Origin: Patescibacteria group bacterium | GTDB lineage: Bacteria > Patescibacteriota > Minisyncoccia > Phycocordibacterales > Phycocordibacteraceae | Assembly: GCA_018971265.1 (NCBI GenBank) | Contig: JAGXBE010000004.1 | Span: 1 to 32,964 of the forward strand | Direction: 5' to 3' | Length of the DNA: 32,964 nt | Shown: in pieces, positions 4,386-32,911 of the stretch | Position numbering within the stretch: position 1 is the first letter of the stretch | Layout of the letters: every line of letters starts with the position of its first letter | Program-made: the position numbers and the translations under genes | The notes under the pieces: generated by a model | The model's input: only the letters and a program-made list of their open reading frames with translations | Told to the model about the DNA's origin: nothing | Database searches by the model: none

Positions 4386-7300
4386 ATGAGACGTCTTAGT
4401 GCTACCATGGAGACAATGCGCGCTCGCTCGCTCATTGGGCTGTTCTCTGTTGCCACGTCATTTTGCGTGCCAGCGTTTGTCCATGCCTCTACCATCTGGA
4501 GTTCTGCCGCAATTCACCCTGACGAAGTTCTCGTCTACACCCCAAGTTTAACCAACCCTTGGTATGGCGGAACTTCAACTTCAAGCATTATTCAGATAGG
4601 AACATGGAGCCAGCCAGATTTCACTACCGATGCAAGTACCACCATCCATATCTGGGCGCGCTGGAATGGGCAGGTGAGTCCGGTGCTCGATATTCTCATG
4701 GCCGCAACCGATCCGGCGACCAATCCATATGACACAAATCAAAACATAATCCAGCATCCGAATGGTGACATCTATCGACTCAATGTATACGCCACTTCCT
4801 CACTGCAGGAATACGTACTCCCCACAATCCCCGCTAAAACTCTCAGTACCGGCGATGCGGTTAATTTTTGGGTATGGTTCTACCCTTCGTGGGCGGCATA
4901 CGGAGCGGATCATTGGCTCGGTTCAAATGGTACGCTGCCCTATGTAGAAATATGCGAAGTGCAGTGTACCGGCAACGACTCGTCTCCTTCAATTGTCATT
5001 CTCGGTAATGCAACCACGACTGTTGAATTCGGTTCCGCTTTTATCGACCCTGGTGCCACAGCACATGACAGCATTGACGGAGACATTACGAGTGCGGTTC
5101 AGGTCACAGGATCTGTAAATACCGATACTCTAGGCACCACCACTCTTACATATTCGGTCACCAACTCGCGCGGACTTACCTCATCAGCATCGCGTACGGT
5201 TGTCGTCGCATGTACGCATAACTGTGTTTCAAGCGTTCTTTTCCTGCCAGGCATCGAGGGGAGTCGGTTGTATGAGAGTACCGGCTGCGGTAAGTCGGCC
5301 GAGGAGAAATTGTGGGAGCCGTATGATGGATTGTGGAGTGCCGCGTGGGGTGCTGGAGATAAAAAGGTGGCTGACCTTTCACTCAATTCGAACGGAGAAA
5401 GCTCATGTTCAGATATTTATACGAAGGAAGGAGACATCCTTGACTCGGCCGGCGGCGGCAACATCTACCGATCGTTCATCGACGAGATGAACGCCCTCAA
5501 GTCAGGCGGCACGATTAATGACTGGAATCCGGTCGCGTATGATTGGCGCCTCTCGCTTCCCGATCTGCTCACCAGGGGCGTCGAGCGCAATGGCAAGATT
5601 TACTATGAAGAGGCGACGGATACGCCTTATATTGAGCAGACGCTTCGCCAACTCGCGGCAAGCTCGAAGACGGGCAAGGTCACCATCGTCGCACACAGCA
5701 ACGGCGGTCTCGTCGCCAAGGCGCTCATGCAAAAACTCGGCGCGACTACGACGGCAGAACTCGTCGACAAGGTCATTATGGTTGCGGTACCGCAGAGCGG
5801 CGCGCCTTACGCCGTCGGCGCATTGCTCGTGGGAGATAATGCCGGCATTTATTCGCACGGCATTCAGATTGTCTCAAACCAGGCGGCTCGCACCTTCTCC
5901 CAGAACTCGCCGATGGCGTACCACCTGCTCCCATCCCAGACCTATTTCGACAGTATCATGTACGACCCGGCTCATCCAGTCGCACGTTTTGAGGGCGATG
6001 GGTACGCAACCGAGCGTGCCGCGTATGGCGGCGTTATCGGGACAGAGTCCGAACTAGACGATTTCCTTCTTGCCAAGGATGGCGGACGCACACAAGCCGC
6101 TGATGGAGATCTTTCTGCAGCGAAGATATTGAATCCGGTACTCGTCAGCTACGCCACAAGCACTCACGACGCTCTCGACTCTTGGACACCTCCCGCGGGC
6201 ATTACGGTAGACCAGATCGCCGGCTGGGGAGTTGATACGGTCGCGGGTATCGACTTTTACTCGCAGCAGTCGTGGTTACTCGGCACCCAACGGCTTTATA
6301 GGCCAATTCCTATCGAAGACGGAGACGGTACCGTCCCTGTGCCAAGTGTGTTTCTGGTGACGTCGAGCACGAGCGTGAAGGATTATTGGGTGGATTTGAA
6401 TTCCTACTATAATGCTACAAAAATAAAACGCACGCATTCAGATCTGTTTGAAGTCCCCTCCCTTCAAGCTTTCATCAAGAACCTCATCGAAAATAGTACG
6501 AGTACGCTTCCGTCATATATTCAAACCACGCGGCCATTGCCCAATGACATAACGAAGAAGCTCACATACTTCCTCCATTCACCTCTCACGCTCCAGCTCA
6601 CCGATGGCTCGGGCAATGTCACGGGCATGAGCCCCGATGGCTCGGTTACCGAAAATATCCCCGGCTCGACCTATGGCGAATTCGGCGAGGTGAAGTACGT
6701 CACCCTTCCCGAAGGGAATGTGTACCAGCTCACGATGCACGGGCTTTCAAGCGGCGTGTTCTCGCTCGATATGCAGGAGAGAGCCGGCGACACCGTTACC
6801 GCCTCGAGCACCGTCGCAGATGTCCCGACAACCGCGAGCACCACGGTCACCATGATGGTACCAACCGATGTCTCGATGCTGTCGCCCATGAATGTTGATG
6901 AAAACGGAGACGGGACGATTGATAGCGTCATCACGCCGAAGCTCGGCGACACCATTGTCTTCGACAGAGTACCGCCGGAGCTACATCTGACGTTTAGCAC
7001 TACTACACAATCGCTCGCCATTACCGGCACCGACGACCAGGGCCCCGTAACACTTACCTCTACTACCGCACAGCCGGCCCGCTTTGTGAAAAAACAAAAA
7101 GGGCGCGCAGAAGACGGGCGAGACTCGCACGAAGCAGTCACGACCACCATTGCGCGCGACATGGCAGGGAACACGACCGCTGTCTCTTACACGACCGCGC
7201 TGTCGTACGAAGGCAGTCTCTCTATAGACGTGCTTTCACTCGCGTACAACGGAGCAACGACCACACTGCCCGAGACAACGCTCACATTCAACTGGGGAAG

Positions 7301-7541
7301 ATCGCACACCGGTGACTACAAAACTCTCGAGTCGGTCTTGCATACCGCAACGACAACCATCACTGCCCGCTATCAGTCTAAACCGGATCGAACGATTATT
7401 ACGACGAGTACGCAGACTGAGAAAAGGAACAGGCGCGGCGATGAAAAAGAACACCTTGTTCACGACACGCGCGAAGTTGTTCCCGGGATGGTGATACCCT
7501 ATATGACAACGGAGACGGGGAACATACTTATCAGCCACTAG
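4386..7541 (+). CDS. Large secreted lipase/esterase of LCAT-like alpha/beta-hydrolase fold with an Ig-like (DUF5011-type) domain
   Basis: 1051 aa; signal peptide; GNATTTVEFGSAFIDPGATAHDSIDGDITSAVQVTGSVNTDTLGTTTLTYSVTNSRGLTSSASRTVVV (DUF5011-like); VLFLPGIEGSRLYE; nucleophile elbow VAHSNGGLVAKALM; EDGDGTVPVPSV; KRTHSDLF. Start may be ATG 4410 rather than 4386. Confidence 0.85.
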   Translation: MRRLSATMETMRARSLIGLFSVATSFCVPAFVHASTIWSSAAIHPDEVLVYTPSLTNPWYGGTSTSSIIQIGTWSQPDFTTDASTTIHIWARWNGQVSPVLDILMAATDPATNPYDTNQNIIQHPNGDIYRLNVYATSSLQEYVLPTIPAKTLSTGDAVNFWVWFYPSWAAYGADHWLGSNGTLPYVEICEVQCTGNDSSPSIVILGNATTTVEFGSAFIDPGATAHDSIDGDITSAVQVTGSVNTDTLGTTTLTYSVTNSRGLTSSASRTVVVACTHNCVSSVLFLPGIEGSRLYESTGCGKSAEEKLWEPYDGLWSAAWGAGDKKVADLSLNSNGESSCSDIYTKEGDILDSAGGGNIYRSFIDEMNALKSGGTINDWNPVAYDWRLSLPDLLTRGVERNGKIYYEEATDTPYIEQTLRQLAASSKTGKVTIVAHSNGGLVAKALMQKLGATTTAELVDKVIMVAVPQSGAPYAVGALLVGDNAGIYSHGIQIVSNQAARTFSQNSPMAYHLLPSQTYFDSIMYDPAHPVARFEGDGYATERAAYGGVIGTESELDDFLLAKDGGRTQAADGDLSAAKILNPVLVSYATSTHDALDSWTPPAGITVDQIAGWGVDTVAGIDFYSQQSWLLGTQRLYRPIPIEDGDGTVPVPSVFLVTSSTSVKDYWVDLNSYYNATKIKRTHSDLFEVPSLQAFIKNLIENSTSTLPSYIQTTRPLPNDITKKLTYFLHSPLTLQLTDGSGNVTGMSPDGSVTENIPGSTYGEFGEVKYVTLPEGNVYQLTMHGLSSGVFSLDMQERAGDTVTASSTVADVPTTASTTVTMMVPTDVSMLSPMNVDENGDGTIDSVITPKLGDTIVFDRVPPELHLTFSTTTQSLAITGTDDQGPVTLTSTTAQPARFVKKQKGRAEDGRDSHEAVTTTIARDMAGNTTAVSYTTALSYEGSLSIDVLSLAYNGATTTLPETTLTFNWGRSHTGDYKTLESVLHTATTTITARYQSKPDRTIITTSTQTEKRNRRGDEKEHLVHDTREVVPGMVIPYMTTETGNILISH

Positions 7542-23652: not shown

Positions 23653-23678
23653 GGTTTGTGTGGTAGGGTGTGCCCACC

Positions 23679-25238
23679 ATGCGCCTTCGCCGCTCGTCGG
23701 CCCGCGTAATCAAGAAAAAGACCCCCGCACGGCCTCGGTCTTTTACGGTTTCTCCCTCCTTTATTGCGAAACTGCGCACGAACGAGAGCGCGGATTGGTC
23801 GCGGGCGACTTCCACCGCCATCCTCAAACGCTTCAAAGATGCGTACAAGAATGTTTCGGCATACCGGCACTTTCTTGAGCGTCTGGACATCGACCCAGTT
23901 TCCATACGTACGAGCAAAGACGTAAAACGCATTCCACCCATAACCAAGGAAAATTATTTGCGCGTGCATCCCTGGGAAAAACTTTGCGTCGCCGGTGCAC
24001 TCGCAGAGGAACCGCTCGTTCTCACGGCGACCTCCGGCTCGACCGGCCAGCCCTTCTATATCCCGCGCACCGACGAGGTACACGATTCCTCGATGGTTTT
24101 CCATCGGCTTTTCATGGAGCGCAGCGGTCTCGACCCCGCAAAGTCGACGCTCGTTGTGGTTGCGTTTGGGATGGGCGTTTGGATTGGCGGCATCCTCACC
24201 TACGAAGCGCTCCGACGCATCTCGGAACACGGTTGGCCGCTCACCGTTATCACGCCCGGCGTGAACAAAAAGGAAATTTTCGAGGCGCTCACGCATGTCG
24301 CATCGGCCTACGAACAAGTTGTCCTCTGCGGCTACCCACCTTTTGTGAAAGATCTTATCGATGACGCCCCGGAGCACGGTATTGAGTGGAAGCAGTGGGA
24401 CATTCGCATCGTTTGCGCCGCCGAAGCGTTTTCGGAACATTTCCGAGAATATCTCATGCAGAAGACCGGCATGAAAGACCCTTACCGCAGCGTTATGAAC
24501 ATCTACGGCAGTGCCGAGCTCGGTACTATGGCGACCGAGACACCGCTCTCGATATTGCTTCGTCGCCTTGCGCTGAAGCATGAAGCGCTGTACCGCAAGC
24601 TCTTCAGCGAAGCGCACCGTTTGCCGACGTTGGCGCAATTCATTCCTGATTTCGTATCGTTTGAGGCGGGAACGAGCGGCGAGGTTTACGCGACCGGCGG
24701 TACCGCTCTGCCGTTCATCCGGTATGATATCGGCGACCAGGGAGGCGTCTTTTCCTATGCGGATGCCGTGCGCATGTGCACCGAAGTCGGCATCGATCTT
24801 ATCGCGGAGGCAAAGCGCACGGGCATCGGTGACACCGTCATGGAGTTGCCGTTCGTGTATCTCTATGAGCGTGCGGACCTCTCGGTCAAGCTCTATGGTG
24901 CCATCATCTATCCCGAACACGTAAAAATTGGCCTGCAAAATCCCGCACTCGAGAAATTCATTACGGGCCGCTTCACTATGACGACCGAGCATGACGCAAA
25001 ACATAACGAGTACCTTGAAATCAATATCGAACTCCAGCGTGGCGTGAAAGACGGCGAACCGATACAAGCAGCTCTCGTCGAGAGTGTAGTGAAGAGTCTC
25101 TCAGCTTCAAGCGGCGAATATCAAAACAATCATGTAAACATGGGTGATCGTGTTTTCCCGCGAATTGTCTTCTGGCCGCATGGGCATCCAAAGTATTTCC
25201 ACCCTGGCATCAAGCAAAAATGGGTCATGTCATCGTAG
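23679..25238 (+). CDS. Phenylacetate-CoA-ligase-like adenylating enzyme (ANL superfamily)
   Basis: LVLTATSGSTGQPFYIPR (P-loop), YGSAELGTMATETP, GEVYATGGTALPFIRYDIGDQG. The track start at 23670 is also possible. Confidence 0.85.
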   Translation: MRLRRSSARVIKKKTPARPRSFTVSPSFIAKLRTNESADWSRATSTAILKRFKDAYKNVSAYRHFLERLDIDPVSIRTSKDVKRIPPITKENYLRVHPWEKLCVAGALAEEPLVLTATSGSTGQPFYIPRTDEVHDSSMVFHRLFMERSGLDPAKSTLVVVAFGMGVWIGGILTYEALRRISEHGWPLTVITPGVNKKEIFEALTHVASAYEQVVLCGYPPFVKDLIDDAPEHGIEWKQWDIRIVCAAEAFSEHFREYLMQKTGMKDPYRSVMNIYGSAELGTMATETPLSILLRRLALKHEALYRKLFSEAHRLPTLAQFIPDFVSFEAGTSGEVYATGGTALPFIRYDIGDQGGVFSYADAVRMCTEVGIDLIAEAKRTGIGDTVMELPFVYLYERADLSVKLYGAIIYPEHVKIGLQNPALEKFITGRFTMTTEHDAKHNEYLEINIELQRGVKDGEPIQAALVESVVKSLSASSGEYQNNHVNMGDRVFPRIVFWPHGHPKYFHPGIKQKWVMSS

Positions 25239-25248
25239 TCTTAAATAG

Positions 25249-26451
25249 GTGCCCTTAACCCAGAAAGATATGGATACGGAAAAAACTCTCGACATGCTTC
25301 GCCGCCGAGAAACCGCGTCAAGACCATCGATTTTCGACCTTTCGAAGAGCGGAGATCGCGCTCGTTTTGAAACTCTCCTGAAAGAAGGCGCTATCAAGCA
25401 AATTTCAGACGATTACGAAGAACAGCAGCGGGAGCTTTTTGGCATCAAAAATCCTTCACGCGTGTATGCGCCCGGCTTCGAAGAAGCATTTCAAGAACAC
25501 TATCACTCACTCTCTGCGGGAAAGTCGCTTTCGGAGCACGGCCGCTGGGCCTATTTCCCTTGGCGCTATCTCGCCGCGCACATTCTGCCGGAGGAGGAGT
25601 ATTGGCTCGTGCGTACGGCGCGCAATCAAAATCTCATCACGAAGGAGGAGCAAGAGAAATTTTACAATGCCACCGTCGGCATCGCTGGGCTTTCCGTCGG
25701 TTCAAGCGTAGCGCTCGCCCTGGTGCTTCAAGGGGGGCCGAAACATCTCAAGCTTGCTGATATGGATCGACTTGCCCTTTCAAACACGAATCGAATTGTT
25801 GCGGGGGCGGACCGGCTCGGTATGCTGAAGGTGGAAATGGCGGCTCGGACGCTCTACGAGATAAACCCGTACGCGGAGCTCGAGCTATATTCAGACGGGC
25901 TAACCCCCGAAAACATAGATGCATTTTGCGAAGGGTTGGATCTCATCATCGATGAGATTGATAATCTCGCGGTGAAATATTTGATACGCAAACAGGCACA
26001 AAAAAGAAAAATAGCGGTCGTTATGGCCGCAGATAATGGCGATAATGCCGTCGTCGACATTGAACGCCAAGACATTGATCCGCAACCGGAATTTTTCCAC
26101 GGGCGCATGGGTAGGGTTTCGTATGAGACGCTTTCAAAACTTGATAAATTTGGTATCGGCAAAATGATTACGAAATTAGTCGGGCCGGAAAATGTGACCG
26201 AGCGCATGCAGCAGTCTTTGACGCAGATGGGGAAGACGATCGTCTCGTGGCCGCAGCTCGGCGGCGCGGCGCTCATAAACGGCGCGGCGGTTGCCTACTG
26301 CGTCCGCAAGATCCTGAACGGCCAGCCGCTTGAAAGCAATCGCGCGCTCGTTTCTCTCGACGAAAAACTCATTCCCGACTACACCACTCCCGCGGCCGCC
26401 GCGCGTCGGCAGAAAATCTCCGACGATTTCGCGAAAGGATTCGGTTTATAG
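25249..26451 (+). CDS. ThiF/MoeB (E1-like) adenylyltransferase-family protein
   Basis: YNATVGIAGLSVGSSVALALVLQGGPKHLKLADMDRLALSNTNRIVAGADRLGMLKVEMAARTLYEINPYAELELYSDGLT...DLIIDEIDNLAVKYLIRKQA. Start GTG 25249 or ATG 25270. Confidence 0.88.
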   Translation: MPLTQKDMDTEKTLDMLRRRETASRPSIFDLSKSGDRARFETLLKEGAIKQISDDYEEQQRELFGIKNPSRVYAPGFEEAFQEHYHSLSAGKSLSEHGRWAYFPWRYLAAHILPEEEYWLVRTARNQNLITKEEQEKFYNATVGIAGLSVGSSVALALVLQGGPKHLKLADMDRLALSNTNRIVAGADRLGMLKVEMAARTLYEINPYAELELYSDGLTPENIDAFCEGLDLIIDEIDNLAVKYLIRKQAQKRKIAVVMAADNGDNAVVDIERQDIDPQPEFFHGRMGRVSYETLSKLDKFGIGKMITKLVGPENVTERMQQSLTQMGKTIVSWPQLGGAALINGAAVAYCVRKILNGQPLESNRALVSLDEKLIPDYTTPAAAARRQKISDDFAKGFGL

Positions 26452-26591: not shown

Positions 26592-27890
26592 TTAGAAAAC
26601 GACTGCACGCTCCAGCTTTTCTTGATTGAGTACAACAGTTTCTCCAAAGATAATCAAATTCATTTTCTCCTTGTCGAATATCTTCTGAGTCATCGCACGT
26701 ATATCACTTTCACTCACGGACGCAATCATTTTCTTGACCGTTTTGTGACTCGGGATATCCTTTTGGTCTAAGATGAATCTTGTCAAGATGTTAAAACGTC
26801 CTTCGTTGTTTCGCCAAGATACCAACATGTCGCCAGCCCGCTTCTTTTTTGTCTTTTTTAACAGGAGAAGATCGAGTTTACCTTTTTTTAATTCGCGAAT
26901 CATACCACTGACCATTTCTACCCACGGCACAACCTGCTCTTTATTTAAATGGCTCTGTATAGAGAGATAGCCATTATAAATACCTTGACTATAAGCAACA
27001 CTGAAATCGTATATTCCCGCCTCTCTGATCTTTTGCCTAATCCCTTTTCTTTCTTTGTCCCGCATGACCTCAGCCATCAGCTCAAAGATCATATTATCTC
27101 TAAGACTTTCTGATCGACCAATGGACGGGAACGTCATTGCCACATAGTTGCCAGACATATCCGGTTCGTCGCTAATCTGTACTTGGAAGCCCGAATACGC
27201 TGGTTTTGGAAAATTCACAGACCCATTTGGCAGGTTTAGTTGGCCCAATTTATCGTTGATAACATCACAAACCCTGGGGTTTAGCTTGGTTGACGACACG
27301 AATACTTTTAGATTTTCTTTTGTGAAGATTTTCTTGTGATATGCAGCGATATCCTCGATTTTCAAATATTTCAATCTTGGAAGGTGATCCACGAATGATC
27401 GCCTGTTCGGTTCATCGGAGTATCTTGTTCTTTCAATCAGTCTTTCCAACTTCAATTCAGTATCGTTTTTTTCATTCTCCAACTCATTGATAATTGATTT
27501 CTTTTCGTAGTCGAATATCTCTTGACGGCTGAAATCTGGATTCGCAATGGTCTCAAAGAATTTCTCGATAGCGCAGATAAGGTTTTTATTATCACTTGAT
27601 TCAAGATAAAAGACGATGTAGTAATCGTTGATTCTCGCCTCAAACCTCACATCGTCCGGAAGCCCTTTATTTACAAGTTCGGAGATATAATGTTCTAGGA
27701 GATGCCCGATGCCGACTAGCTCTTCTTTTTCCGACAATGCCCCGGCCTTTATATAGATATCAACAAAGGTCTTTTCAGTATATCTTGGCAAATACAAAAA
27801 GTAACAATCGGGCTCTCTATTGAAATTCGTTACCAGTTTCCTATCCTTGAAGTACCAATACAAATCCGATAATTTCTTGTTGAAATTCAT
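26592..27890 (-). CDS. M16-family zinc peptidase (cytosolic, about 430 aa)
   Basis: HLLEH = HxxEH zinc motif (LVGIGHLLEHYISELV), downstream NELENEKND glutamate, no signal peptide. Confidence 0.82.
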   Translation of the reverse strand: MNFNKKLSDLYWYFKDRKLVTNFNREPDCYFLYLPRYTEKTFVDIYIKAGALSEKEELVGIGHLLEHYISELVNKGLPDDVRFEARINDYYIVFYLESSDNKNLICAIEKFFETIANPDFSRQEIFDYEKKSIINELENEKNDTELKLERLIERTRYSDEPNRRSFVDHLPRLKYLKIEDIAAYHKKIFTKENLKVFVSSTKLNPRVCDVINDKLGQLNLPNGSVNFPKPAYSGFQVQISDEPDMSGNYVAMTFPSIGRSESLRDNMIFELMAEVMRDKERKGIRQKIREAGIYDFSVAYSQGIYNGYLSIQSHLNKEQVVPWVEMVSGMIRELKKGKLDLLLLKKTKKKRAGDMLVSWRNNEGRFNILTRFILDQKDIPSHKTVKKMIASVSESDIRAMTQKIFDKEKMNLIIFGETVVLNQEKLERAVVF

Positions 27891-28913: not shown

Positions 28914-29993
28914 ATGGACGAGAAAATTACTCCCGATCTCGAGCGCGTCCTTGAAGCGGGGAACAGCGCGCCTTCGGGCGAAAACTGCCAGCCGTGGCAT
29001 TTTGTCGTACACGGCTCCACGATTGAAGTCCATCTTTTGCCCGAGCGCGATCAATCGCCCTATGGGTGGGGCCAGCGTGCTTCGTATCTCGCAAATGGCG
29101 CGGTGATAGAGAACATAGTCATCGCGGCATCGGCAGAACAGTACCGCGCCGAAGTGCATTATTTCCCAAACCCGAGCGATGAGTGGCACGTCGCAACGAT
29201 TGTGCTTACCAAAGATTCGACCATCGAATCCGACCCGCTCGCATCGTACATCACCAAACGCATTTCAAATCGCAAACCCTATAAGAAAGATCAACTCACT
29301 GGTGAGGAGCGCAAGACGCTCGCAAACGCCGCCGCACACGGGGGATACGGCATGTTTGCTCTCGCTGAGGCGCCAGAGGAGGTGGGTCGTCTCGGGCGAG
29401 TCGGCTCGACCAATGAGGAAGTGATGCTGGCGAACCGCTCTTTGCATGATTTTTTCTTTAGTCATGTAAGCTGGACGAAAGAAGAGGATGACGAGAAAAA
29501 AGCGGGTTTTTATATCAAGACGCTTGAGCTACCGCCGCCCGCAAAACTTATGTTTAAAATATTCCGCAACTGGCCCATCATGCGCGTTCTCGGCACCATC
29601 GGTTTTAATCGCATTGTGGCAAAACAGAATGCGGCGACAAATGCGTCCGCATCCGCCATTGGCGCTTTCATGATTGCTCGCACCGAGCCGCTCGACTTTG
29701 TGAAGATAGGCCGCGCGGTGGAGCGGCTCTGGCTTACCGCGACTTCTCTCGGGCTATCGCTCCAGCCGCTCACTGGCGTGCTTTTCTTTAAGCTTAGATT
29801 TGACGGCGGGGAGAGGGATGGATTTTCGTCGCATGAGCAAAAACTCGTCATCGATGCCTACCAAGAGGCCTCTCGGATATTTCATGCAGACGGCAAGCAC
29901 ATCGCCTTCACGTTCCGCATCGGCCGGGGCGACGCTCCCTCAGCGCACGCAATTCGTTTTCCGCTTGCGGAGGCAGTGACGATACAGTCCTGA
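28914..29993 (+). CDS. Nitroreductase-like flavoprotein
   Basis: VLEAGNSAPSGENCQPWHFVV; RISNRKPYKKDQLT; IGRAVERLWLTATSLGLSLQPLTGVLFF. Extended -10 (tgctatact) shortly upstream. Confidence 0.82.
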   Translation: MDEKITPDLERVLEAGNSAPSGENCQPWHFVVHGSTIEVHLLPERDQSPYGWGQRASYLANGAVIENIVIAASAEQYRAEVHYFPNPSDEWHVATIVLTKDSTIESDPLASYITKRISNRKPYKKDQLTGEERKTLANAAAHGGYGMFALAEAPEEVGRLGRVGSTNEEVMLANRSLHDFFFSHVSWTKEEDDEKKAGFYIKTLELPPPAKLMFKIFRNWPIMRVLGTIGFNRIVAKQNAATNASASAIGAFMIARTEPLDFVKIGRAVERLWLTATSLGLSLQPLTGVLFFKLRFDGGERDGFSSHEQKLVIDAYQEASRIFHADGKHIAFTFRIGRGDAPSAHAIRFPLAEAVTIQS

Positions 29994-30873: not shown

Positions 30874-30902
30874 TTGTCATAAATTAGCATCCGTGGTATA
30901 GA
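30874..30902 (+). promoter_or_regulatory. Sigma70-type promoter for the ATP-grasp gene
   Basis: TTGTCA (30874-30879), 17-bp spacer, TATAGA (30897-30902). Confidence 0.7.
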
Positions 30903-30936
30903 TGTGCCCAGACAACTTCTTTGAATGGAGAATCAC

Positions 30937-31860
30937 ATGGCAGAGAAAACCTTCTTAATAGTGAGCAACTCAAATGATGCGCACGTTCATTCGGTCGTAC
31001 GCAGACTTAACGAACGTTCGATACGGGCACATCAGCTGAACAGTGATATGTTCGTTTCAATTCCTCGAAAATGGAGCATTTCTCAAAACGAAAGTAAGAT
31101 TTCCTCCACGTTGTTTGTGCCGGAAGTCGATGCTGTCTGGTATCGGAAAGTTCTGTTTCCAGAAGCAACGACCGCAGTGCAGTCGTTCATTCGGCAGGAA
31201 CTCGAAGGATTATTCGATTCCATCCTTGCTCAGTATGAGAATTGTCGTTGGGTGAACTCAAGAACTTGTATATCTGCAGCGCGACCGAAGATTTCCCAAC
31301 TGCAACGTGCTAAAGAACTCGGGTTCCGTATTCCTGACACGCTCATAACGAATGACGTTGAGGAACTAAGGAGGTTTGCTTCCTCGCATCAAGGTCGGAT
31401 TGTGGCGAAACCGATTCGGGCACAAGTCGTTGAATCAGAAGGAGAATTCTCTGTCATCGGAACACGGAGCTTAACCCCCGAACATTATGAATCTGCAACT
31501 AACTCTTGCCCTGGATATTTTCAAGAACGATTACCACTCAAGTCAGAAATACGAGTAATCGTCTTCGGGAAGCGTATATATCCATTTCGTCTTACGCCGC
31601 AGAAAGAGGCCGATGACATAAAGCAGCTCGCTCTAGAGGATATTAAGCACGAACGGTGTCGGTTAGACGAGAGTATCTCGGATAAGATTGAGGCACTCTT
31701 GTCTTCTTACGCTCTAGAGTTTGGAGCGATAGATCTTGCTGATATTGACGATGGCGAACCCATGTTCTTCGAGCTCAACCCTAACGGCCAGTGGCTGTGG
31801 CTACAGCACGTGACGGGTGAAAATCTCATCGATCCGTTTATAGATCTGCTTTGTTCTTAA
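30937..31860 (+). CDS. MvdD/MdnB/C-like ATP-grasp ligase (putative graspetide/omega-ester peptide maturase)
   Basis: MAEKTFLIVSNSNDAHVHSVVRRLNE...VDAVWYRKVLFPE...QRAKELGFRIPDTLITNDVEELRRFASSHQGRIVAKPIR...CPGYFQERLPLKSEIRVIVFGKRIYPFRL...LEFGAIDLADIDDGEPMFFELNPNGQWLWLQHVTGENLIDPFIDLL. GGAG SD 6 nt before ATG 30937; the track start is 30925. Confidence 0.88.
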   Translation: MAEKTFLIVSNSNDAHVHSVVRRLNERSIRAHQLNSDMFVSIPRKWSISQNESKISSTLFVPEVDAVWYRKVLFPEATTAVQSFIRQELEGLFDSILAQYENCRWVNSRTCISAARPKISQLQRAKELGFRIPDTLITNDVEELRRFASSHQGRIVAKPIRAQVVESEGEFSVIGTRSLTPEHYESATNSCPGYFQERLPLKSEIRVIVFGKRIYPFRLTPQKEADDIKQLALEDIKHERCRLDESISDKIEALLSSYALEFGAIDLADIDDGEPMFFELNPNGQWLWLQHVTGENLIDPFIDLLCS

Positions 31861-31870
31861 GTCGAGACTA

Positions 31871-31903
31871 GAAGCCTGCCAAGATATGGCAGGCTTCCTT
31901 TTT
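31871..31903 (+). terminator. Intrinsic terminator after the ATP-grasp gene
   Basis: gaagcctgcca-agata-tggcaggcttc followed by cttttta. Confidence 0.88.
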
Positions 31904-31926
31904 ACATATTACAATTGACACCAGCT

Positions 31927-32655
31927 ATGTCTGAGTCGACCTTCAGTCCACCTAACACTCTTTTCGCTACATTGCCGCAGGGGCCTGATTTCGTTGTTGT
32001 TGGCGAAATGCACGGCTCGAGACAGAATGCCGCTTTAGTCAGGAGCGTGGCGCAATTCCTTCTTGATAACGAAAGAAAAATTACACTCGCTTTCGAATGG
32101 GTGCTCAGCGGCACAGAACTTGAGGAGCTTCAGGGATATGTGACAGGGGGCCGCGTACCAGAACATTTGCCAACATTCTTCCTCCACTCCGACGGGCGCT
32201 TCACGTATGAACACGTGGCGCTCCTGAAGTGGATTCGAGCATGCAATCTACAAGGGAAGAAGATGGATATTTATACGTTTGACAGAAATGATCCCCCTGC
32301 TTCAGATAAGGATATGGCCGATATCCTGCTTTCATATAAAGAAAATCATCCAGAATCCGTCATTTTGGTTGAGACAGGGAATAGGCACGCGAGAAACTCG
32401 AGTTATTCTTTTGAGGGTGTGGAGCAAGTGCCTATGGCCTCGATTTTAAAAGAAAGCGGTACGATATTTTCAATCTTCTGTAGGTACAAGGAAGGCTCTA
32501 TAAACGTAGATGGAACATCGAGAGATGTTACAAATGCTGTGTCTCAGATTGAGGGGCCGGGGGCATATTTTGATGCGGTGTTGGAGGTGCCCTTCTCAGT
32601 AGCGGCAGAGAATATAAGAAGTTTGACAAGCATCTCAGGAATGCTTACTATTTGA
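31927..32655 (+). CDS. ChaN/TIKI/EreA-like superfamily protein
   Basis: DFVVVGEMHGSRQNAALVRSVAQFLLDNERKITLAFEWVLSGTELEELQGYV...LVETGNRHARNSSYSF; GExHG motif followed by an FEW segment. Start ATG 31927 or TTG 31915. Confidence 0.6.
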   Translation: MSESTFSPPNTLFATLPQGPDFVVVGEMHGSRQNAALVRSVAQFLLDNERKITLAFEWVLSGTELEELQGYVTGGRVPEHLPTFFLHSDGRFTYEHVALLKWIRACNLQGKKMDIYTFDRNDPPASDKDMADILLSYKENHPESVILVETGNRHARNSSYSFEGVEQVPMASILKESGTIFSIFCRYKEGSINVDGTSRDVTNAVSQIEGPGAYFDAVLEVPFSVAAENIRSLTSISGMLTI

Positions 32656-32699
32656 CACGGCAATCTCGCCAAGTTCGTACCCTCACAGGAGTAGTGATT

Positions 32700-32855
32700 A
32701 TGAAACAAGATGCTGTAGTAGTACCGTTCCTTCTGCAATTTGCCGATAAACCAGACCTTGATCGTCAAGATAATAAGGTCAGTTCTCGGTGGGGTGAGGA
32801 AGATCCGAACATATTCCACACCCGGTGCGGCCATCCACGACATATCGATGACTAA
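32700..32855 (+). CDS. 51-aa candidate graspetide precursor peptide
   Basis: MKQDAVVVPFLLQFADKPDLDRQDNKVSSRWGEEDPNIFHTRCGHPRHIDD*; AGGAG 8-9 nt before ATG; microviridin-leader-like VPFLLQFAD; core with K/S/S/T nucleophiles and E/E/D...D/D acceptors; terminator follows. Confidence 0.72.
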   Translation: MKQDAVVVPFLLQFADKPDLDRQDNKVSSRWGEEDPNIFHTRCGHPRHIDD

Positions 32856-32884
32856 ATGTCTCTCGGTGGTACCCTTCGAGACTT

Positions 32885-32911
32885 AAGCACCCGGCCAACG
32901 GTCGGGTGCTT
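32885..32911 (+). terminator. Intrinsic terminator/hairpin after the 51-aa peptide gene
   Basis: aagcacccggcc-aac-ggtcgggtgctt stem (one G-T wobble). Confidence 0.75.

Follow-up and report, generated by a model that had tools for sequence, protein, structure and literature searches.

A Probable Graspetide Cassette With a TIKI/Ere-Like Hydrolase Gene and a Conserved Precursor Core in Patescibacteria

Three Genes Near the End of a Patescibacteria Contig

The window analyzed here comprises 32,964 nucleotides and represents the whole of contig C8 from a Patescibacteria genome of 556 kb, which is 97% complete. Near the contig end, three genes on the plus strand encode an ATP-grasp ligase (30937–31860), a TIKI/ChaN-like protein (31927–32655), and a short ORF of 51 aa (32700–32855). 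A previous reading of the sequence alone had proposed a complete or near-complete graspetide cassette at this site; the three ORFs and the ligase motifs VWYRK and FFELNPNGQWLWLQHVTG that it listed were all found in the sequence, and the proposal itself is supported by the ligase identity, the conserved precursor, and the recurrence of the gene trio. The small size of the genome supports its placement in Patescibacteria, which the same reading had suspected from the gene content.

An alignment-based contig scan yielded four closer relatives, which by ligase identity are L089 (69%), L090 (57%), L091 (46%), and L092 (39%), the last one from Kaiserbacteria. Including the window, ligase gene, TIKI-like gene, and precursor gene are present in identical order in five loci. 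Thus, the neighborhood survey suggested in the sequence-only reading showed that the trio recurs and that the short ORF is kept beside homologous ligases. A single-protein scan of genome contigs found no relatives, and nothing was found in the viral contigs scanned. Plasmids contained only distant ligases (approximately 26–33% identity among the matches listed), whereas the TIKI-like gene was not found in them.

The GC content of the cassette is below that of the remainder of the window, and the cassette is absent from all nine other genomes of the host's family that were searched. For these two reasons, horizontal transfer of the cassette is plausible.

Some further genes of the window were recorded. 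The final 6.5 kb of the contig are mostly of lower GC and resemble a variable region; an M16-type peptidase gene located there (26595–27890, minus strand) has a GC content of 39.5% in a contig of 54% GC. This peptidase was considered as a leader peptidase and set aside, being encoded on the opposite strand at a distance of approximately 3 kb and having no counterpart, as judged by eye, among the larger ORFs of L089–L092. Genes for an AMP-ligase-like protein (23670–25238, no Pfam match), a ThiF/E1-like protein (25249–26451), and an Acg/Rv1355c-type nitroreductase (28914–29993) lie close to each other. The window encodes ThiF and nitroreductase by separate genes, whereas PRK14851/Rv1355c-type proteins combine both parts in one fused chain. 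Finally, the 1051-aa protein encoded at 4386–7541 combines an Ig-like surface domain with an alpha/beta hydrolase domain of the LCAT/PGAP1 type.

The ATP-Grasp Protein Is a Graspetide Ligase

The ligase has a length of 307 aa when read from the ATG at 30937 and of 311 aa when read from the start of the longest ORF at 30925. The former start is preferred because it is preceded by a Shine-Dalgarno sequence (GGAG, 30927–30930) and because homologues start at this position. The protein matched the NCBIfam models TIGR04187 (E-value 2.5e-53), TIGR04185 (6.4e-39), and TIGR04184 (1.1e-36), in each case under the strict NCBIfam cut-offs, and it scored 0.3 bits below the own cut-off of PF21068. The match to rimK_fam was weak (9e-8), so that the graspetide maturase models far outscore the RimK model. 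Solved relatives in the PDB are MdnB, CdnC, AMdnB, MdnC, PruB, and PsnB. The predicted structure has a pLDDT of 91, and in a Foldseek search with this model the best 32 chains were all graspetide ligases, with LysX/ArgX and RimK appearing only after them.

A tree was calculated by a quick method from 117 ligases, which included several long-branch rows and four RimK-type rows as an outgroup. The window ligase clusters with those of L089–L092 (SH-aLRT 99), with a Brennerbacteria ligase adjoining (96). This five-locus clade is positioned among the graspetide ligases. Three RimK-type rows lie on the opposite side; the fourth one, which has a very long branch, was placed elsewhere, and the outgroup is therefore not clean. 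The HMM search and the tree, which had both been proposed as checks, consequently group the protein with graspetide ligases and not with RimK, and the predicted-fold matches agree. By sequence, tree, and predicted fold, the ATP-grasp protein is a microviridin/graspetide (MvdC/MvdD-type) ligase.

The ligase family is patchily distributed in the phylum: some match was obtained in 20 of 380 genomes at phylum level, in 29 of 384 at class level, and in 18 of 197 at order level. The phylum and class searches gave no ligase match in other genomes of the host's genus or family. As a separate observation, eight CPR ligases (L049, L054, L068, L070, L076, L077, L078, and L080) form a clade with an SH-aLRT of 100; in the short ORFs of these loci, a PF[IV] leader is combined with a core rich in Thr/Ser and in Asp, such as TTSGT[YW]..[IV]D or TSTGYWND.D.

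The Middle Gene Encodes a Predicted TIKI/Ere/ChaN-Superfamily Hydrolase

The second gene (31927–32655, plus strand) encodes a protein of 242 aa, in which the E-x-H motif, a Glu, and a second His (2His/2Glu) are intact. Its match to PF04187 (3.4e-5) is below the cut-off, and 9 of 12 homologues match this family. GExHG, the Glu, and GNxHA (or a close variant) are invariant in the 12 homologues. The His-to-Glu spacing amounts to 28 residues, the same as in BcR135 (H85/E113) and RRSP (H3902/E3930) (PMC6254334), whereby the 2His/2Glu residues were assigned by motif and spacing and not by superposition. The structural model has a pLDDT of 89.9 and is nearest in Foldseek to BcR135, EreC, HopBA1, and ChaN (E-values from 8.7e-7 to 3e-4). 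The fold matches of the model and the invariant residues confirm the ChaN/TIKI/EreA-like class that had been read from the sequence, and the predicted structure places the protein in the TIKI/Ere/ChaN superfamily with its catalytic residues intact.

Homologues of this hydrolase adjoin such ligases in 15 other loci, namely the four cassettes and eleven more, which as far as named belong to Patescibacteria or DPANN archaea. The eleven further loci include Wolfebacteria, Brennerbacteria, Woesebacteria, Woesearchaeota, and Pacearchaeota, and most of them carry a short, SD-preceded ORF of their own, frequently with a DD end (e.g., FWTKCKDKKGKSTDD, SWTGQGSxKHxDD, and T[YW]KG[ST]D[PR]DDSD). Within the class, close hydrolase homologues were present in 3 other genomes of 384, two of them beside such a ligase and the third at a contig edge. 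Two of the archaeal loci, L157:3744–5630 (Woesearchaeota) and L134:2089–3658 (Pacearchaeota), each combine a graspetide ligase with a TIKI-like gene, and in L157 a 75-aa ORF that contains PFGANYF and ends in DD is also present.

The 51-aa ORF Encodes a Conserved Graspetide Precursor

The short ORF (32700–32855, plus strand) is preceded by a Shine-Dalgarno sequence, AGGAG, at 32687–32691. Residues 6–16 (VVVPFLLQFAD, 32715–32747) constitute a leader recognition element with the Phhx(1,2)h motif described previously (PMC8939145). In 21 of 36 other CPR ligase loci, a nearby SD-preceded short ORF with a P-h-h-x-x-h leader was found, and most of these ORFs end in an Asp-rich tail. A leader profile was built from these 21 precursors, leaving out the 51-aa ORF of the window. 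Among the 74 SD-preceded short ORFs in the window, the 51-aa ORF scored 20.2 bits, compared to 6.5 bits for the runner-up, and none of 20,000 residue shuffles reached its score. Since the 21 sequences were picked by motif, this result indicates that the ORF of the window shares their motif and their setting; it does not imply that all 21 are proven precursors.

Homologous ORFs of 47–49 aa are present at the same position in the four independent loci L089–L092 (phmmer E-values 6e-14, 1e-13, 2e-11, and 3e-7). All five precursors have the PFL leader in common, followed by a hypervariable linker that aligns poorly, and all five end in the C-terminal core FH[TS]RCGHPR[HA]xDD, which in the window is the predicted core FHTRCGHPRHIDD (residues 39–51, 32814–32852). 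Pairwise comparison of the 13 core codons gave 4–9 synonymous and 0–3 non-synonymous differences. Because the changes are mostly synonymous, the conservation reflects purifying selection and not recent copying; leader and core are both shown to be under purifying selection. The profile score, the shuffles, and the homologues beside related ligases all favor the earlier suggestion that the short ORF is the substrate, and we conclude that it is a real precursor.

A Thr/Ser donor and DD acceptors, as in a graspetide core, are conserved in all five precursors; in the window, Thr41 is the predicted donor and Asp50/Asp51 are the predicted acceptors. Apart from the core Thr, the L089 and L091 precursors contain no Ser/Thr/Lys downstream of the leader, and therefore the product of these loci is limited to one crosslink. 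Instead of the several crosslinks (n × H2O) that the sequence-only reading had allowed for, these single-donor precursors predict one, and a single Thr/Ser–Asp macrolactone (one shift of -18 Da) is the likely product. The precursors showed neither a conserved Gly-Gly nor any other evident cleavage site, and a search for a second precursor in the window and the genome did not find any.

Expression Signals

A promoter-like sequence, TTGTCA-17-TATAGA, is located upstream of the ligase gene (30874–30902, plus strand). It agrees with the notion that the ligase has its own promoter at the level of the consensus but not above chance, as the region contains three such sites compared to 3.1 in shuffled sequences. 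The ligase terminator claimed in the same reading is a good one: between the ligase and the TIKI-like gene lies an intrinsic terminator (31871–31903, hairpin proper 31871–31897, plus strand) of -20.7 kcal/mol. A hairpin occurs at this position in all five loci, each time with unrelated sequence. The ATG of the TIKI-like gene lacks a Shine-Dalgarno sequence, and a -10-like box, TACAAT (31910–31915, plus strand), lies 11 nt in front of it; such a box before the SD-less TIKI start is present in the window and in several relatives. TACAAT is a possible own promoter of the TIKI-like gene with a near-leaderless start. The conserved intergenic hairpin and the -10-like box thus suggest that the ligase is transcribed separately from the TIKI-like gene and the precursor. 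Downstream of the precursor, a strong 12-bp hairpin (32885–32911, plus strand) is present at the position of the proposed final terminator, but it has no T-run.

Proposed Maturation Pathway and Alternative Explanations

Taken together, the locus is almost certainly a graspetide cassette. In the proposed pathway, the ligase would bind the 51-aa precursor at its PFLLQF leader and, with ATP, would activate a side-chain carboxylate in the C-terminal core. This carboxylate, most likely that of Asp50 or Asp51, would then be esterified with Thr41, the sole Thr of the core, so that one macrolactone closes around the Cys/His-containing RCGHPRH. Subsequently, the TIKI/Ere-type hydrolase would most likely remove the leader and the linker, giving a peptide close to FHTRCGHPRHIDD. 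We infer the single ester, its partners, and the role and site of the cleavage. As a whole, this explanation (a complete cassette, a single ester, and a hydrolase trimming the leader) is held with good confidence, whereas for the assignment of the hydrolase as leader peptidase the chances are about even. TIKI/Ere proteins span peptidases as well as esterases, and the nearest solved structures to the model are of the Ere family, so that leader cleavage is a tentative assignment.

Erythromycin esterases open the macrolide lactone. By analogy, the TIKI/Ere-like protein of the same cassette could be an esterase that reopens the macrolactone for self-protection or turnover. This would fit the best Foldseek matches, which are the Ere-family proteins BcR135 and EreC, as well as the predicted ester bond, and a resistance role has been considered where other graspetide loci encode an Ere homologue (Makarova et al., PMC8939145). 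We nevertheless regard it as rather unlikely, as TIKI relatives include endopeptidases (PMC6254334), the cassette contains no other candidate leader peptidase, and the TIKI-like protein accompanies several different cores, which fits better to a general processing step. Even less probable is that the protein is no active hydrolase but a scaffold or partner on which ligation depends. Partner-protein-dependent graspetide synthesis is known from rosaritide with MirC (PMC13097080), but the four catalytic residues, which a scaffold would not need, are all invariant, and many related ligases have no TIKI neighbor. The ATP-grasp protein might also be a RimK/LysX-type amino-acid ligase acting on a protein tail, with the short ORF being unrelated. 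Apart from the weak rimK_fam match, the evidence argues against this: matches to graspetide models and structures are much stronger, the leader motif and the conserved adjacent precursor speak for a graspetide ligase, and the NCBIfam scores, the tree, and the Foldseek ranking rule out a RimK-like identity of the ligase. This last explanation is therefore highly improbable, and leader removal by the hydrolase remains our preferred reading.

Relation to Known Systems and Significance

A graspetide pathway in CPR had been regarded as unusual and the TIKI-like partner as an unfamiliar accessory. Both have precedents, as a 2022 study described graspetide loci in CPR and, for part of the branch 2 loci, Tiki/TraB genes (Makarova et al., PMC8939145). 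With the CPR loci of ATP-grasp branches 1 and 2 in that study, the present cassette shares the ligase, the short precursor with a Phhx(1,2)h leader, and the CPR host, and with some branch 2 loci also the Tiki/TraB gene. According to the main text, precursors were not confidently identified for most branch 2 loci, whereas here a precursor was found, with a near-invariant core and a fixed gene order in five loci. By comparison with the main text, overlap with the reported loci is possible, e.g., with the Kaiserbacteria locus MFMT01000039.1. Another study describes 43 groups, some of them from candidate phyla, and does not name TraB (PMC13097080).

The microviridin systems (MdnA with MdnB/MdnC, AMdnB) have the same ligase family and fold and a similar leader (PFFARFL, compared to PFLLQFA here). 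However, microviridins involve two ligases, and their tricyclic cores have several Thr/Ser/Lys donors, whereas the present cassette has one ligase and a core with one donor and conserved Cys and His residues; it is thus not a microviridin system proper. The best NCBIfam match connects the window ligase to actinobacterial graspetide ligases (TIGR04187/TgmB, PruB), but the cassette lacks a PIMT-type methyltransferase and its core is unrelated. The hydrolase shares the fold and the 2His/2Glu residues with EreC, BcR135, HopBA1, ChaN, and RRSP, and differs from other members of the superfamily in being a compact protein of 242 aa linked to graspetide ligases. No paper with the core string turned up in a literature search of main texts. 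As far as checked in main texts, there is no description of the precursor family, of its near-invariant Cys/His core with a single nucleophile, or of the fixed order of the three genes.

Many CPR graspetide loci have been left without a precursor, whereas leader, linker, and core can here be read from five aligned homologues. The ligase–TIKI pairing is extended to DPANN archaea, and a TIKI/Ere-type hydrolase is tied to graspetide maturation, for which the leader-removing enzyme is often not known. Whereas graspetide cores change rapidly in many loci, the near-invariance of this core suggests a single conserved target. Speculatively, and with low probability in our view, the product could be a conserved metal- or cofactor-binding macrolactone with H-x2-C-x-H-x2-H in one ring, being neither a variable weapon nor a protease inhibitor, for whose synthesis and trimming the ligase and the TIKI hydrolase would be dedicated enzymes. 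If so, such a macrolactone would serve these very small symbionts in metal or haem handling or in host signaling.
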